A stretch of DNA of 25,715 nt, taken from positions 1-25,715 of the IMG/VR virus record IMGVR_UViG_3300047474_000739. One strand, given 5' to 3'. Made by a program: the position numbers and the translations under genes. Source of the DNA: a virus. The notes under the pieces are model-generated. The model did no database searches and had not been told where the DNA came from. It was given only the letters and a program-made list of their open reading frames with translations. Positions 8,580 to 17,578 of this stretch are shown piece by piece. How positions within the stretch are numbered: the first letter of the stretch is position 1; the number at the start of each line of letters is the position of its first letter.

Positions 8580-8606
8580 AAGGGCAGTTTTTTTAAGCTG
8601 CCTTTT
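8580..8606 (+). terminator. Rho-independent terminator after ninG
   Basis: Arms 8580-8587 and 8598-8605 pair over 8 bp (one wobble) with core GGCAG/CTGCC, and three weaker pairs can close the loop. The tract CCTTTTGTTTTT follows. A separate 6-bp hairpin (GTAGCA, TGCTAC) lies at 8543-8558. Confidence 0.8.
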
Positions 8607-8634
8607 GTTTTTATCAACAATTTGTTTATATTGC
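8604..8634 (+). promoter_or_regulatory. Host-type promoter candidate for 8654
   Basis: TTTG at 8604-8607, 19 bases, then TATATTGC at 8627-8634, close to the Bacteroidetes TTTG-N19-TAnnTTTG pattern but missing one T. It lies in a terminator-promoter junction 19 bases before the ATG at 8654. Confidence 0.4.
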
Positions 8635-8653
8635 AGTCGTAATACGATACGAT

Positions 8654-9611: not shown

Positions 9612-10517
9612 ATGCTAGTAAACTACAACGACCAAATAAAAACACTTTCAAACCTACGTACAGGAAAATTAAAGCAAGGCTTAAAGCTAGGCATACCAGA
9701 AATAGACGAGTATTTTGTAATGAAACCGCAAGACTTTGGAATATGGCTAGGGCATGCTAACGTAGGAAAAACAAGCCTTACTATTTACTTAATGCTATTG
9801 TATGCCATAAAGCATAACCAGAAATTTTTAATTTATTCTAGCGAAAATGAGCCTTTTGAGCTTATACAAAAATTGCTAGAGTTTATACTAGAGCAACCAA
9901 TAAACAAAATAATACCTACAGACTTTAACCAAGGCATAGCCTGGATAAAAAAACATTTTCAATTTATAGACAATACCAGGCTGTATACATACAAAGAGCT
10001 TTTAGAAGAGGCGCAAAACCATAGGATAATATTTAAGTACGACGGTTTCCTTATTGATCCGTACAATAGTTTGGCAAAGGACAAAGAAATGCTAAAAGGT
10101 TTGGGCGTACACGAGTACGACTACGAGGCAACAACCGACATAAGACTATTTTGTAAAAAACATAAAGTTACTGTCTGGCTATGTACGCATGCAAACACCG
10201 AGGCAATACGACAAGTATATAGAGACGGCGAGTTTCAAGGCTACCCAAAAGTACCAGAGAGTTCGAGTATTGAGGGCGGCGGAAAATTCGTCAACCGCTC
10301 TGACTTTTTCGCTTGCTGTCATCGTTTTATTCAGCACCCTGTTTTGTTTATGAATAGCCAGCTACATATAAAAAAGGTAAAAAGCATTTCGTCTGGCGGT
10401 CGTTGCACCAGCCTAGACAACCCCATAATTTTAAAAGCAATTACCAACAATGTTGGGTACTCTATTAACAATGAAAGTCTAGTAAAAAAACTTAAATTAG
10501 AGCGCGCACCTTTTTAA
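9612..10517 (+). CDS. RecA/DnaB-type ATPase, probable replicative helicase
   Basis: 301 residues with one RecA-like ATPase core. Walker A GHANVGKTS (47-55), SSENEP (76-81) with the catalytic Glu, Walker B FLIDPYNSL (146-154), and THANTEA (192-198) as the DnaB/RadA-type sensor. There is no N-terminal primase-binding domain of full DnaB, so it is a helicase-core-only or AAA_25/RepA-like protein. It would move on single-stranded DNA or load recombination proteins. It lies just behind the ssDNA-binding genes and before the sigma-like factor. Family placement between DnaB-like helicase and RadA-like recombinase is not certain. Confidence 0.8.
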   Translation: MLVNYNDQIKTLSNLRTGKLKQGLKLGIPEIDEYFVMKPQDFGIWLGHANVGKTSLTIYLMLLYAIKHNQKFLIYSSENEPFELIQKLLEFILEQPINKIIPTDFNQGIAWIKKHFQFIDNTRLYTYKELLEEAQNHRIIFKYDGFLIDPYNSLAKDKEMLKGLGVHEYDYEATTDIRLFCKKHKVTVWLCTHANTEAIRQVYRDGEFQGYPKVPESSSIEGGGKFVNRSDFFACCHRFIQHPVLFMNSQLHIKKVKSISSGGRCTSLDNPIILKAITNNVGYSINNESLVKKLKLERAPF

Positions 10518-10534
10518 ACCCTAGTATTTTGTTG

Positions 10535-10542
10535 TACCTTTT
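10535..10542 (+). promoter_or_regulatory. Host-type -7 box candidate for the sigma-like gene
   Basis: TACCTTTT differs from the Bacteroidetes TAnnTTTG box only at the last base and lies 9 bases before the ATG at 10552. No clear -33 TTTG at the right spacing. If real, the sigma-like gene is under host control, as expected for an early-to-late switch. Confidence 0.35.
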
Positions 10543-10551
10543 TATGCATAT

Positions 10552-11142
10552 ATGAAATGCGTACTAACAGAAATTTATAAAAGTCATAAAATATGGCTAG
10601 ACATTGTACAGAGTTTTAGCGTCAATAACGAGACAGCGCAAGACGTTGTTTCCGAAATGTATGTAAACGTACAGAAACACGTACAGGAAAAAGGCGCGGA
10701 CATATACTACAATGGCAACCAAATAAATTACTACTTTATATATATATGTCTTCGCAACCTAGTCTACGACTTAAAGCGCAAAGAAAAAAAAGTAACATAC
10801 TTACAAATAAACGAGCGGCTAGACTTACAGCAAGACGACGACTATATAGAAGAGCCAGACGCCTACGACAAATTAAAGTCTATTTTAGAATGGTACGAAA
10901 AACCAGAGTATTTAGACATGCTAGAAAACGAGACTTATTTAGAAGAGTTTAGCAGCGACAAAATGCACCTTTACTATTTACGTAGAATTTTTAAAGAGGT
11001 ATACCTGGACGGCAAAAAACTAGCAAAATTTAGCCGCGAGACTAAAATAACATATTGGTCGCTACGCAATACATTAAAGACTATTAAAAGACAAATAAAA
11101 AATGAGTATAAAAATAGGCACAATACTAGAGACAATATTTAA
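10552..11142 (+). CDS. Sigma-70-like RNA polymerase sigma factor
   Basis: 196 residues. Region 2-like part at about 11-80: HKIWLDIVQSF, then AQDVVSEMYVNVQKHV (as in AEDLVQETF of ECF sigmas) and YFIYICLRNLVYDLKRKEKK (as in the core-binding and -10 recognition helix). An acidic linker (about 90-106, with QQDDDYIEEPD) leads to a region 4-like helix-turn-helix at about 140-185 (YYLRRIF, then FSRETKITYWSLRNTLKTIK). This is the layout of small phage-encoded ECF-type sigma factors, which direct host RNA polymerase to phage promoters. The ACGTTATATA boxes before the virion genes are its likely targets. Direct proof of binding is absent. Confidence 0.75.
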   Translation: MKCVLTEIYKSHKIWLDIVQSFSVNNETAQDVVSEMYVNVQKHVQEKGADIYYNGNQINYYFIYICLRNLVYDLKRKEKKVTYLQINERLDLQQDDDYIEEPDAYDKLKSILEWYEKPEYLDMLENETYLEEFSSDKMHLYYLRRIFKEVYLDGKKLAKFSRETKITYWSLRNTLKTIKRQIKNEYKNRHNTRDNI

Positions 11143-14985: not shown

Positions 14986-16158
14986 TTGCAAATAGAAACA
15001 AACGTAGTCTGGAAACACCTAGAGCATACAGACAAAAAAATTGTCATAATGCAAGGGGGTACGCGGTCTGGTAAAACCTACAACACTTTGCTTTGGCTTA
15101 TATTTTCCTATTGCCAAAAGTATACAGGCAAGACTATAACTATTTTCCGCGCAACCTACCCAGCTTTACGCGCAACCGTAATGCGAGACTTTTTCGACAT
15201 ACTTAATAAATACGACTTATACAACGAGGCGCACCATAACAAAAGCAACAGCGAGTATAGACTAAACGGTAACCTATTTGAGTTTGTAAGCATAGACCAG
15301 GCAAGCCGCTTAAAAGGTCGGAAACGAAACCTAGCATTTTTAAACGAGGCAAACGAATTTAGCTACAGCTCGTACAGCCAGGTTTTATTTAGGACAGTAG
15401 GCACGCCAGGCGCACCGTCTATAATTTTAGACTACAACCCCAGCGACGAGTACAGCTACATATACACCAGAATTAAAACACGCGAAGACGCGGCGTTTCA
15501 CATTACTACATACAAAGACAATAAATTTTTAGAGCAAAGCCTAGTAGACGAAATAGAGCGTCTAAAAGAAACCGACGAGGACTACTGGCGCGTATACGGT
15601 CTAGGGCAAGTCGGACGAAACCGAGCAACCGTATTTAAGTTTAGCGAATGCCAGGAAATACCAGAGCGAGCCAAACTAATTGCACGCGGTCTAGACTGGG
15701 GGTTTGTGAATGATCCAAGCTGCCAGGTGGCAACCTACCTACTAGACAACAACCTATATATAGACGAAGAGTTTTACCAGTACGGAATGACAAACCGCGA
15801 CATACATAATAAACTACTAGAGCTAGGCTTAAAACGAAACGACGAAATTTTTGCCGACAACAGCGAGCCAAAAAGTATTGACGAGTTACACCGCTACGGC
15901 TGGAATTGCAAACCGTCTACAAAAGGCAAAGACAGTATTTTAATGGGCATCGACTTAATGAAGAGGTATAACATTTTTGTTACAAGTCGTAGTACAAACA
16001 CAATACAGGAATTTAGAAACTACAAATGGCTCGAAGACAAAAACGGCATGCTACTAAATAAACCAGAGCCGAAAAACGACCACACCGTCGACGCGGTGCG
16101 CTATAGTATTTTTACAAAACTGTCAAGACCGAATATTGCTAGGTACGCAATAAGATAG
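14986..16158 (+). CDS. terL: Terminase large subunit
   Basis: 390 residues from a TTG start; an ATG at 15049 would leave too little before the ATP site. Walker A GGTRSGKT (24-31), a Walker B LAFLNEANEF (117-126) with catalytic Glu121, and an RNase H-like nuclease domain with GLDWGF (Asp237), ADNSEPKS (Asp291, Glu294) and NDHTVDAVRY (Asp369). This is the Terminase_3/6 type motor that cuts concatemers and pumps DNA through the portal at 1469. It is the last gene before the RNA locus; no terminator hairpin is seen between them, only 11 bases and the RNA promoter. Confidence 0.95.
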   Translation: MQIETNVVWKHLEHTDKKIVIMQGGTRSGKTYNTLLWLIFSYCQKYTGKTITIFRATYPALRATVMRDFFDILNKYDLYNEAHHNKSNSEYRLNGNLFEFVSIDQASRLKGRKRNLAFLNEANEFSYSSYSQVLFRTVGTPGAPSIILDYNPSDEYSYIYTRIKTREDAAFHITTYKDNKFLEQSLVDEIERLKETDEDYWRVYGLGQVGRNRATVFKFSECQEIPERAKLIARGLDWGFVNDPSCQVATYLLDNNLYIDEEFYQYGMTNRDIHNKLLELGLKRNDEIFADNSEPKSIDELHRYGWNCKPSTKGKDSILMGIDLMKRYNIFVTSRSTNTIQEFRNYKWLEDKNGMLLNKPEPKNDHTVDAVRYSIFTKLSRPNIARYAIR

Positions 16159-16169
16159 CTTTATAAACA

Positions 16170-16201
16170 TTTGGTTGGTAACTTTTTTTGTTGTATATTT
16201 G
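16170..16201 (+). promoter_or_regulatory. Bacteroidetes-type promoter for the RNA locus
   Basis: TATATTTG at 16194-16201 fits the TAnnTTTG -7 box exactly. TTTG at 16170-16173 is a -33 candidate with a 20-base spacer, inside the allowed range. Transcription should begin near 16208. It is the best host-like promoter in the window and drives a unit that starts with untranslated RNA. Confidence 0.7.
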
Positions 16202-16207
16202 TAATGT

Positions 16208-16521
16208 CGCGAGTAAGCAGACACGCTCTTTAACATTTTGACTAGCAATTTTAAGCAGAAACTTAAAGTAAATACGCCAGATACATTTAAAACATAATAT
16301 AAACGTCCTATGTATATGTACCCTGGTTTCAATTTATAGGTATTGAAGTAGGCTTGCGAGCCAGCCTGGACAGGCAAAGTAGGGAAAATAACCTAGCTAG
16401 TGTTAAAAGCAAACAGTAAGACTGAAAGCCGTAGTTATACGAAAAATAGCAGTCAAGCCTAAGCCAACCAGGCGAGCGACTTAAACTACTAAATATGGTC
16501 GGTTAACTAAAATTCGATATA
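16208..16521 (+). ncRNA. Candidate structured RNA, part A
   Basis: No frame of any size runs across 16159-16521. Helices I could pair by eye: 16248-16255/16262-16269; 16281-16286/16310-16315; a closing stem 16322-16328/16466-16472 (CCTGGTT with AACCAGG); an inner stem 16349-16356/16454-16461 (TAGGCTTG with CAAGCCTA); a hairpin 16329-16333/16342-16346; 16364-16367/16372-16375; 16380-16383/16392-16395; and CGTA-GTTA-TACG at 16430-16441. Nested long-range stems around a multi-branched core are typical of functional RNA. It does not look like tmRNA, RNase P, or a group I or II intron. Function unknown. The start is the predicted transcription start and the end is set by the small gene at 16522. 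Confidence 0.6.
16225..16235 (+). promoter_or_regulatory. boxA-like antitermination element
   Basis: GCTCTTTAACA is identical to the core of the E. coli rRNA boxA and close to the CTTTGACATnTTG leader element in front of Bacteroidetes rRNA operons; the following bases are TTTTG. It lies about 17 bases after the predicted start of transcription. boxA recruits NusB-S10, which protects long untranslated RNA from Rho, as in rRNA operons. Confidence 0.6.
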
Positions 16522-16692
16522 ATGAAAAATTACGACTACAAAAAACTAATTGAAGACGCCGAGTTTGAAGTCAAGTATTACCAAGGTCAATACGACAAAG
16601 CCGAAAGCAATTTGTTTAGAGCTAGACTAGCTTTAGAGGCTCTACAAATTAGACAAGCCGAACAAGCCGAGCCAGTCTTAGAAACGAGTTAA
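16522..16692 (+). CDS. Small helical protein inside the RNA locus (56 aa)
   Basis: MKNYDYKKLIEDAEFEVKYY starts a charged helix that continues as DKAESNLFRARLALEALQIR to about residue 44, then a polar Glu-rich tail. Codon use (GCC, GAC, CTA, TTA) matches true phage genes, so I consider it translated. It interrupts the otherwise non-coding locus at 16208-16916. A coiled-coil dimer or an RNA-bound partner of the flanking structures is possible. I know of no family. Confidence 0.6.
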   Translation: MKNYDYKKLIEDAEFEVKYYQGQYDKAESNLFRARLALEALQIRQAEQAEPVLETS

Positions 16693-16916
16693 AAATTCTA
16701 GCTAGAAAAAAACTAGGTTGTTAGTGCCTAAGGGGGTTAACCGCTAGCGTAAAAATACAAACGAGTTAAGTTTCCTAGTAGCTTAACACCTAAAAATGGG
16801 ACAACGGAAATATACCATTTAAAATATAGTTTTTCCTATCCAGTAAGATGCTGGCGTTTGAGAAAACAAACAGTCGTACAAACTTATAAGGGCAGCCGAA
16901 AGGTTGCCTTTTTTTT
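16693..16916 (+). ncRNA. Candidate structured RNA, part B
   Basis: No open frame. Visible stems: TTCTAG-CTAGAA at 16697-16708, ACTAGG/CCTAGT at 16712-16717/16774-16779, GTTAAG/CTTAAC at 16765-16770/16782-16787 (an alternative to the previous stem), GGAAA/TTTCC at 16806-16810/16832-16836, CCAG/CTGG at 16840-16843/16851-16854, GTTTG/CAAAC at 16856-16860/16867-16871, and the terminator hairpin. Short palindromes GGTTAACC and CGCTAGCG lie around 16735-16749. It may be the 3' part of one long RNA or a separate processed RNA. Confidence 0.5.
16888..16916 (+). terminator. Rho-independent terminator of the RNA locus
   Basis: GGCAGCC (16891-16897), GAAA loop (16898-16901) and GGTTGCC (16902-16908), extended by three pairs at the base, with T8 at 16909-16916. 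It ends the RNA unit 23 bases before the late-promoter motif of the tail operon. Confidence 0.9.
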
Positions 16917-16963: not shown

Positions 16964-17578
16964 ATGAAGCTAGACATACGAGTACCTACGTCGCTTAACG
17001 ACATACCCTTACACCAGTACCAGAAATTCATTAAAACGTTTGAAGACATAGACGACTTAAACGAAGACTACGCGGCAACTAAAATGCTTGAAATTTTTTG
17101 CGGCTTAAAATTAAACGATGCGCATAAAATTAAAATAGGCGACATGAAAAAAATAACGACAAAGCTAAATAAGGCTCTGTCTGAAAAACCCCTACTTATT
17201 ACTAGGTTTAAGCTGGGCAATACCGAGTTTGGTTTTGTACCGCAACTAGACGACTTAACGTTTGGCGAGTTTGTAGACATTGAAAACAATGTAGGCGACT
17301 GGGAAACTATGCATAAAGCTATGGCGGTTTTATACCGACCAGTCAAACAACGCGTAGGCAAAAAGTACGAAATAGAAGACTATAGAGGCGACAGCTGGCA
17401 CGATGCTATGTTAAACATGCCAGCCAGCGTTGCGGTTTCGGCTATCAATTTTTTTTTTCATTTAGAAAACGACTTACTGAAAGTTACGCTAGCCTATTCG
17501 GATCAAGCGGAAACACCAGTACAACAGGAAATGCAGACAACTTTAACAAACAATGGGGGTGGTATCACAGTTTCATGA
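16964..17578 (+). CDS. First gene of tail operon, tail-chaperone-like
   Basis: 204 residues. LNDIPLHQYQKFIKTFEDID (about 11-30), YAATKMLEIFCGL, FVPQLDDLTFGEFVDIENNV (about 91-110), then DWETMHKAMAVLYRPVKQR (112-130). The LTFGEFVDIEN and HKAMAVLYRPV patterns occur in proteins that I recall from Bacteroidetes phages before tail completion genes. The helical layout and the overlap with a second short frame (ATGA at 17575) parallel the G and GT tail assembly chaperones, although the tape measure gene is not immediately downstream. No frameshift site is obvious. Function is inference from family memory and place. Confidence 0.5.
   Translation: MKLDIRVPTSLNDIPLHQYQKFIKTFEDIDDLNEDYAATKMLEIFCGLKLNDAHKIKIGDMKKITTKLNKALSEKPLLITRFKLGNTEFGFVPQLDDLTFGEFVDIENNVGDWETMHKAMAVLYRPVKQRVGKKYEIEDYRGDSWHDAMLNMPASVAVSAINFFFHLENDLLKVTLAYSDQAETPVQQEMQTTLTNNGGGITVS

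Follow-up and report, generated by a model that had tools for sequence, protein, structure and literature searches.

Between the terminase and tail genes of this phage we found what appears to be an inserted accessory unit (approximately 16194-16911) with terL on one side and the tail operon on the other, the leader making up its 5′ half, and we hold with middling confidence, on comparison with related phages, that it is an RNA "moron", an exchangeable unit with an rrn/tRNA-style promoter-boxA that would carry structured RNAs probably acting in trans. The window, as we call the whole stretch of 25,715 nucleotides analysed, is a fragmentary virus record of 25.7 kb carrying terS, terL, portal and tail genes. 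Its source is a marine Bacteroidota siphophage-like virus, the closest annotated relatives of its TerL being those of Flavobacterium phages (37% identity). The upstream neighbour of the unit is terL, the large terminase gene (14986-16158, + strand; Pfam Terminase_3, E 2e-23; PHROG 2, E 5e-40), and downstream lies the first tail-operon gene, gp204 (16964-17578, + strand; 204 aa; PHROG 32199), with the conserved stretch TTTACGTTATATATWAAAC ahead of it. Since dozens of IMG/VR relatives carry a TerL of 57-100% identity, the slot behind terL can be compared across phages, and terL was used as the anchor for locating the homologous slot in the relatives (L numbers below).

The promoter proposed by the sequence-only reading was confirmed as one of host type, with a -33 element TTTG (16170-16173) and, after 20 nt, a -7 box TATATTTG (16194-16201), both on the + strand, following the motif definitions of PMC9723704, in which TAnnTTTG is the -7 consensus, the sigma-A box of flavobacteria. 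Positions 16161-16199 are conserved at 76-90% in the relatives, most of which carry at the promoter position TATATTGC, corresponding to TAnnTTGY, the SM5-type box of flavobacteria. Among otherwise near-identical phages the slot promoter switches from the sigma-A type, TAnnTTTG, to the SM5 type, TAnnTTGC, or back, as seen at 16194 of the window versus L003, L008, L009 and others.

The exact boxA reported behind this promoter, GCTCTTTAACA (16225-16235, + strand), is indeed present and has no second exact copy in the window, but it begins 23 nt after the -7 box and not 24 as had been given. Its extended form, the 17-mer GCTCTTTAACATTTTGA (16225-16241), resembles the rrn leader GTTCATTAACATATTGA of two flavobacterial genomes, from which it differs at 3 of 17 positions; it lies just 3′ of the promoter and 5′ of an untranslated RNA, and in the flavobacterial 16S leaders GTTCATTAACATATTGA is found shortly 3′ of TATATTTG. 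The 17-mer is the sole match in the window even when 3 mismatches are allowed. Because 18 of 100 shuffled sequences also yield such a match, boxA is weak evidence within the window alone, and it gains its weight from the recurrence of the motif in relatives. The extended boxA is present in the window, L003-L006, L009, L014 and L027-L030, and is thus common to four otherwise unrelated leaders, those carrying the RNAs named below A, E and J, and the D carrier L006.

The absence of a gene for more than 300 nt, also claimed earlier, agreed with our analysis of the leader: the longest open stretch on the + strand is 38 codons, a PHROG search gave no significant match (best E 0.03), the indels between homologous copies have lengths not divisible by three, and the next ORF begins at 16522. 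A decayed gene was rejected on the length of this open stretch and on the protein search that had been named as a refuting check, which found no gene remnant in any frame. It could still be argued that the leader is a non-functional intergenic remnant, since it is variable and AT-rich, gains and losses are frequent at this place, and its whole fold is only slightly better than shuffles (z -1.63). We consider a remnant or decayed gene improbable: module A stays 94-100% identical in phages with differing flanks, and compensatory changes, described below, are found in modules B, D, G and K.

When the slot was cut by local alignment against the relatives, it fell into sharp-bordered pieces. RNA module B (~115 nt, + strand) is composed of a 5′ piece, GTCGCGAGTAAGCAGACA (16206-16223; aligned to L005, L008, L014 and L083), and a 3′ domain (16412-16508) with a GYUA/UAGC hairpin, an AGUC/GACU helix around a GCCU/AGGC hairpin, and a 3′ hairpin. 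The AGUC/GACU helix reads CGUC/GACG in three relatives, 97.8% of the cells are paired over 8 sequences with 2 pairs changed on both sides, and the covariation score exceeded that of 498 of 500 shuffles, slid controls giving 0-0.03; most B pairs are invariant, and shuffles of the minimal B (L083) fold just as well. The end of B (16495-16506) reads ATG NNN RGT TAA, a possible three-codon mini-ORF in most copies, just 5′ of the real start codon; in L003 this frame stays open and runs into the ORF.

Nested in B is RNA module A (16225-16411, + strand; ~187 nt including boxA), with a predicted closing helix at 16241-16246/16396-16401 (ACUAGC/GCUAGU) and six predicted hairpins inside, one of them with a UNCG loop. 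In a predicted outer helix of A, boxA (GCUCUUUAAC) pairs with GUUAAAAGC, so that the boxA strand may be sequestered; this outer arm is lost in L009. Module A alone folds better than its shuffles (z -2.65), 4 of 200 of them being equally good. The A core of L005 carries 8 substitutions, six at unpaired sites and two forming one compensated pair, with 0 broken pairs against a random mean of 3.9 (P=0.003), in a post hoc test on the window's own predicted fold with a hand-adjusted gap; L009 is neutral for the fold (P 0.45 alone). The module is known in only three distinct sequences, the copy of L003/L004 being identical to that of the window, and its fold is the least secure among the supported RNAs, with thinner evidence than K, B and D.

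The sequence-only reading had joined the whole region by nested long-range stems (16322-16328/16466-16472 and 16349-16356/16454-16461). Although the window sequence allows these stems, they are not conserved: in L005, 3 of 15 pairs are broken and uncompensated, L009 has the 5′ arms without a partner, and B is found in relatives without the 5′ arms. They connect two separate RNA modules. What survives of the proposed large RNA is a boxA-led structured RNA, probably non-coding and of no Rfam family; in place of one single large molecule there are two nested modules plus module K.

Beyond the leader, the unit contains a 56-aa ORF (MKNYDY...; 16522-16692, + strand) of no known family, with homologues in most close relatives, and RNA module K (16693-16887, + strand), which is present in the window and L005 and absent from L003/L004, so that a near-identical phage lacks it. 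The pairs of K are 16720-26/16742-48 and 16765-70/16782-87, together with 16712-17/16774-79, which crosses the second of these as a pseudoknot. Between the two K sequences ACUAGG/CCUAGU is replaced by ACCAGG/CCUGGU and GUUAAG/CUUAAC by GUUUAG/CUAAAC, one of these two compensatory changes being located in the helix-crossing pairs; the nested minimum-free-energy fold of K is no better than shuffles (z 0.04). An intrinsic terminator (16888-16911, + strand) ends the unit, its position kept and its stem and loop sequences varying in the relatives. The unit thus has a promoter and a terminator of its own and stands between genes that are neighbours in relatives, L091 having terL directly followed by gp204. 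In these features, and in its presence or absence between otherwise collinear genes, it resembles the phage morons; it differs in that its main variable cargo is structured RNA, the 56-aa ORF being the only protein cargo. A second moron-like unit was noted at 8590-8640 of the window, where a terminator-like hairpin is followed by a TATATTGC promoter and a small ORF.

The content of the slot varies widely. B alone is found in L008, L010, L011, L083 and L086; B with A nested in it in the window and L003-L005; B with D in place of A in L006, and with E in place of A in L014; A without B, behind RNA C, in L009; D with H in L016; a tRNA-like RNA, F, in L018-L026; J in L027-L030; and G in L034-L048. 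L007 and L012, both near relatives, contain no RNA, the promoter leading straight to the start codon. B is thus found without A in L006, L008, L010, L011, L014, L083 and L086, its 5′ piece missing in L006, L010 and L011. Three B carriers (L008, L010 and L083) lack boxA, which is therefore dispensable for B. RNA F is tRNA-like with an insert of ~50 nt in the anticodon arm (L018:1928-2049 and L019:5280-5401, also L020, L023, L025 and L026), and exceeds the Rfam tRNA threshold in two of the six (L018 and L019); its anticodon-stem pairs UUUGC/GCAAA versus UUUAC/GUAAA covary by eye. The closing helix of D has 16 pairs, 5 of them changed on both sides and none broken in 3 sequences, and G has 3 compensated pairs. 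As compensatory changes are found in several modules, several different structured RNAs share one slot. The comparison of homologous regions behind terL for covarying pairs, which had been suggested as a check, thus gave support for B, D, K and G, and thinner support for A.

The kind of RNA in the slot changes while TerL stays 80-98% identical, and in L091 RNA D is found in the replication region, ~5 kb 5′ of terS and away from terL and the tail operon. From these comparisons the slot RNA looks like an exchangeable add-on rather than a part of the packaging machinery. A packaging-related, pRNA-like RNA tied to the terminase had been suggested on the ground of its place, and in most relatives an RNA does stand directly behind terL; the constant link to the terminase is, however, missing, the RNA being absent behind terL in L007, L012 and L091 or different behind near-identical TerL, and we regard this function as extremely unlikely, also because RNA D is ~5 kb from terL in L091.

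The same comparisons bear on the main rival, a cis-acting antitermination or UTR element, which would either allow read-through of the 16888-16911 terminator into the tail operon by modifying RNA polymerase as lambdoid nut or HK022 put RNA does, or stabilise or regulate the mRNA of the small ORF. The put-type antiterminator of HK022 is a pair of neighbouring, conserved stem-loops acting in cis against termination. Like put and the boxA-containing nut of lambda, the leader is a promoter-proximal RNA element; unlike them, it has no evident boxB or put-type hairpin pair, many unrelated RNAs occupy the same place, and no tie to the downstream operon is seen in L091. The RNA modules follow the promoter and precede the start codon, share their strand with the tail operon, and could be a 5′ UTR belonging to the small ORF; the tail genes have a terminator in front of them, and boxA is an antitermination signal (PMC10250234), all in agreement with a cis role. 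Against it, L007 and L012 retain the terminator and the tail operon without any RNA, structurally unrelated RNAs and even a tRNA-like RNA fill the slot, RNA D is found ~5 kb from terL and the tail operon in L091, and B precedes different ORFs in L011, L014, L083 and L086, so that the cargo is not tied to one gene. We therefore judge a cis-acting leader rather unlikely, and prefer RNAs acting in trans.

With respect to known RNA families, the Rfam scan that had been recommended matched none: Rfam 15 gave nothing in the window at the gathering threshold and only chance-level matches at a permissive one. The GOLLD model (RF02032) gave no match in the window at either threshold, while it does find GOLLD in L163, and the ROOL model gave none in the window; membership in the GOLLD or ROOL family is thus contradicted. 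Neither tRNA nor tmRNA was detected in the window by ARAGORN, Rfam or the T-arm pattern GGTTCRANYCC, and a search of GenBank phage DNA returned fragments of 25-37 bases only. When IMG/VR was scanned with exact patterns of A, B, D and K, each was found in 1 to 8 contigs, almost all from close relatives; a covariance-model search for A and B found nothing in 300 genomes from the family of a Winogradskyella MAG, and was weak in that it had no positive control. In favour of one large ornate RNA of the GOLLD/ROOL kind, the window RNA is phage-encoded, structured and boxA-led, and like GOLLD and ROOL it has no known function. GOLLD and ROOL are found close to tRNA islands (PMC12286853), which boxA marks in the present analysis too, and the GOLLD of L163 shares its tRNA island with a boxA leader. 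The window RNAs differ in having no sequence or covariance-model match, in consisting of independent modules of 115-195 nt (A ~187 and B ~115 nt) joined by no conserved long-range stems, and in their place between terL and the tail genes, and such a single large RNA is very unlikely here. In L163 the GOLLD RNA (10357-10776; Rfam 286 bits) is located in a phage tRNA island ~3 kb upstream of the same-strand boxA leader.

The general role of the promoter-boxA was examined by scanning IMG/VR with the pattern TATATT-N14-44-YTCWTTRACATWTTGA, which found 58 stretches. In 6 of 37 independent matches a tRNA gene starts 9-13 nt after the motif, against 0.10 expected (P about 1e-9); these six, L116:11437, L117:2766, L118:1117, L120:172, L123:4153 and L128:10038, stand ahead of the first tRNA of arrays in six independent Bacteroidota-like phage families. 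In this group of phages the motif therefore indicates where a stable RNA begins, in good agreement with the earlier view of boxA as a mark of such RNA, and its presence in the slot leaders is not due to chance. The boxA pattern was not above the reversed-pattern control in whole Winogradskyella genomes, because the rrn boxA there reads GTTCATTAAC. We tentatively propose that Bacteroidota phages share an rRNA-style promoter-boxA cassette for stable RNAs, used for tRNA arrays and possibly for undescribed exchangeable trans-acting RNAs (A, B, D, E, J and others), with boxA serving as a finder of RNA families. Within the open-access literature, subscription journals being outside the scope of the search, no description was found of boxA before phage tRNA arrays, nor of the combination of unrelated structured RNAs in one slot; boxA, morons and phage non-coding RNAs are each of a known kind.

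The sequences themselves show the motifs of promoter and boxA, the modularity and exchange of the RNAs, their compensatory changes, the terminator and the association of boxA with tRNA genes. The course of events that we infer, from transcription and Nus binding to processing and trans action on a target, would be as follows. Host sigma-A-type polymerase would begin transcription at TATATTTG, and ~20 nt on, the nascent RNA would expose a boxA resembling that of the host rRNA leader. Binding of NusB/S10 to boxA could render the polymerase Rho-resistant and hold the 5′ end during RNA folding, as for rRNA and phage tRNA arrays. The modules would then fold separately: A, with ACUAGC/GCUAGU as its closing helix immediately behind boxA, would sit inside B, and behind them would come the 56-aa ORF, K and the terminator. 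The RNA modules would be exchangeable cargo, most likely stable structured RNAs that affect the host in trans, for instance to take it over or to counter its defences. Such a unit shares with the boxA-led stable RNA operons (rrn leaders, boxA CRISPR arrays, phage tRNA arrays) a promoter, a boxA within tens of nt and a long untranslated structured RNA, and differs from them in that its product is not rRNA, crRNA or tRNA and that a protein ORF and a second RNA belong to the unit.

To our knowledge most phage non-coding RNAs are still unmapped, with few signals that tell where they begin. If the boxA rule is true, TATATT followed after 14-44 nt by YTCWTTRACATWTTGA would flag the 5′ end of a stable RNA in a Bacteroidota phage, whether known (tRNA arrays) or unknown. 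That several unrelated folded RNAs, and a tRNA-like one, take each other's place between one pair of genes is what would be expected of rapidly selected accessory factors, such as those for host take-over or counter-defence, here made of RNA, and the slot supplies concrete loci for experimental study.

A closing helix as a general companion 3′ of boxA was dropped after a generic test in other phages gave no signal, and an artificial tandem boxA query gave unspecific matches in GenBank phages, the Lak phages excepted. In Prevotella phage Lak-A2 (MK250019.1, 418186-418209) two successive promoter and boxA-like pairs lie downstream of two tRNAs and are followed by an apparently non-coding stretch. 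Rfam scans of the boxA leaders of L121, L159 and L166 gave no match. In L159 (from 7898), in the homologous pair L146 (from 8214) and L167, in L121 (from 3770) and in L166 (from 1137), the boxA leader is followed by 150 to >400 nt of apparently structured non-coding sequence. In L156 (~55-260) a boxA leader precedes a short RNA that seems to consist of acceptor and T arms only (GGATGCTC...CGGATCGAATCCG...GAGCATCC), a possible tRNA-like structure.
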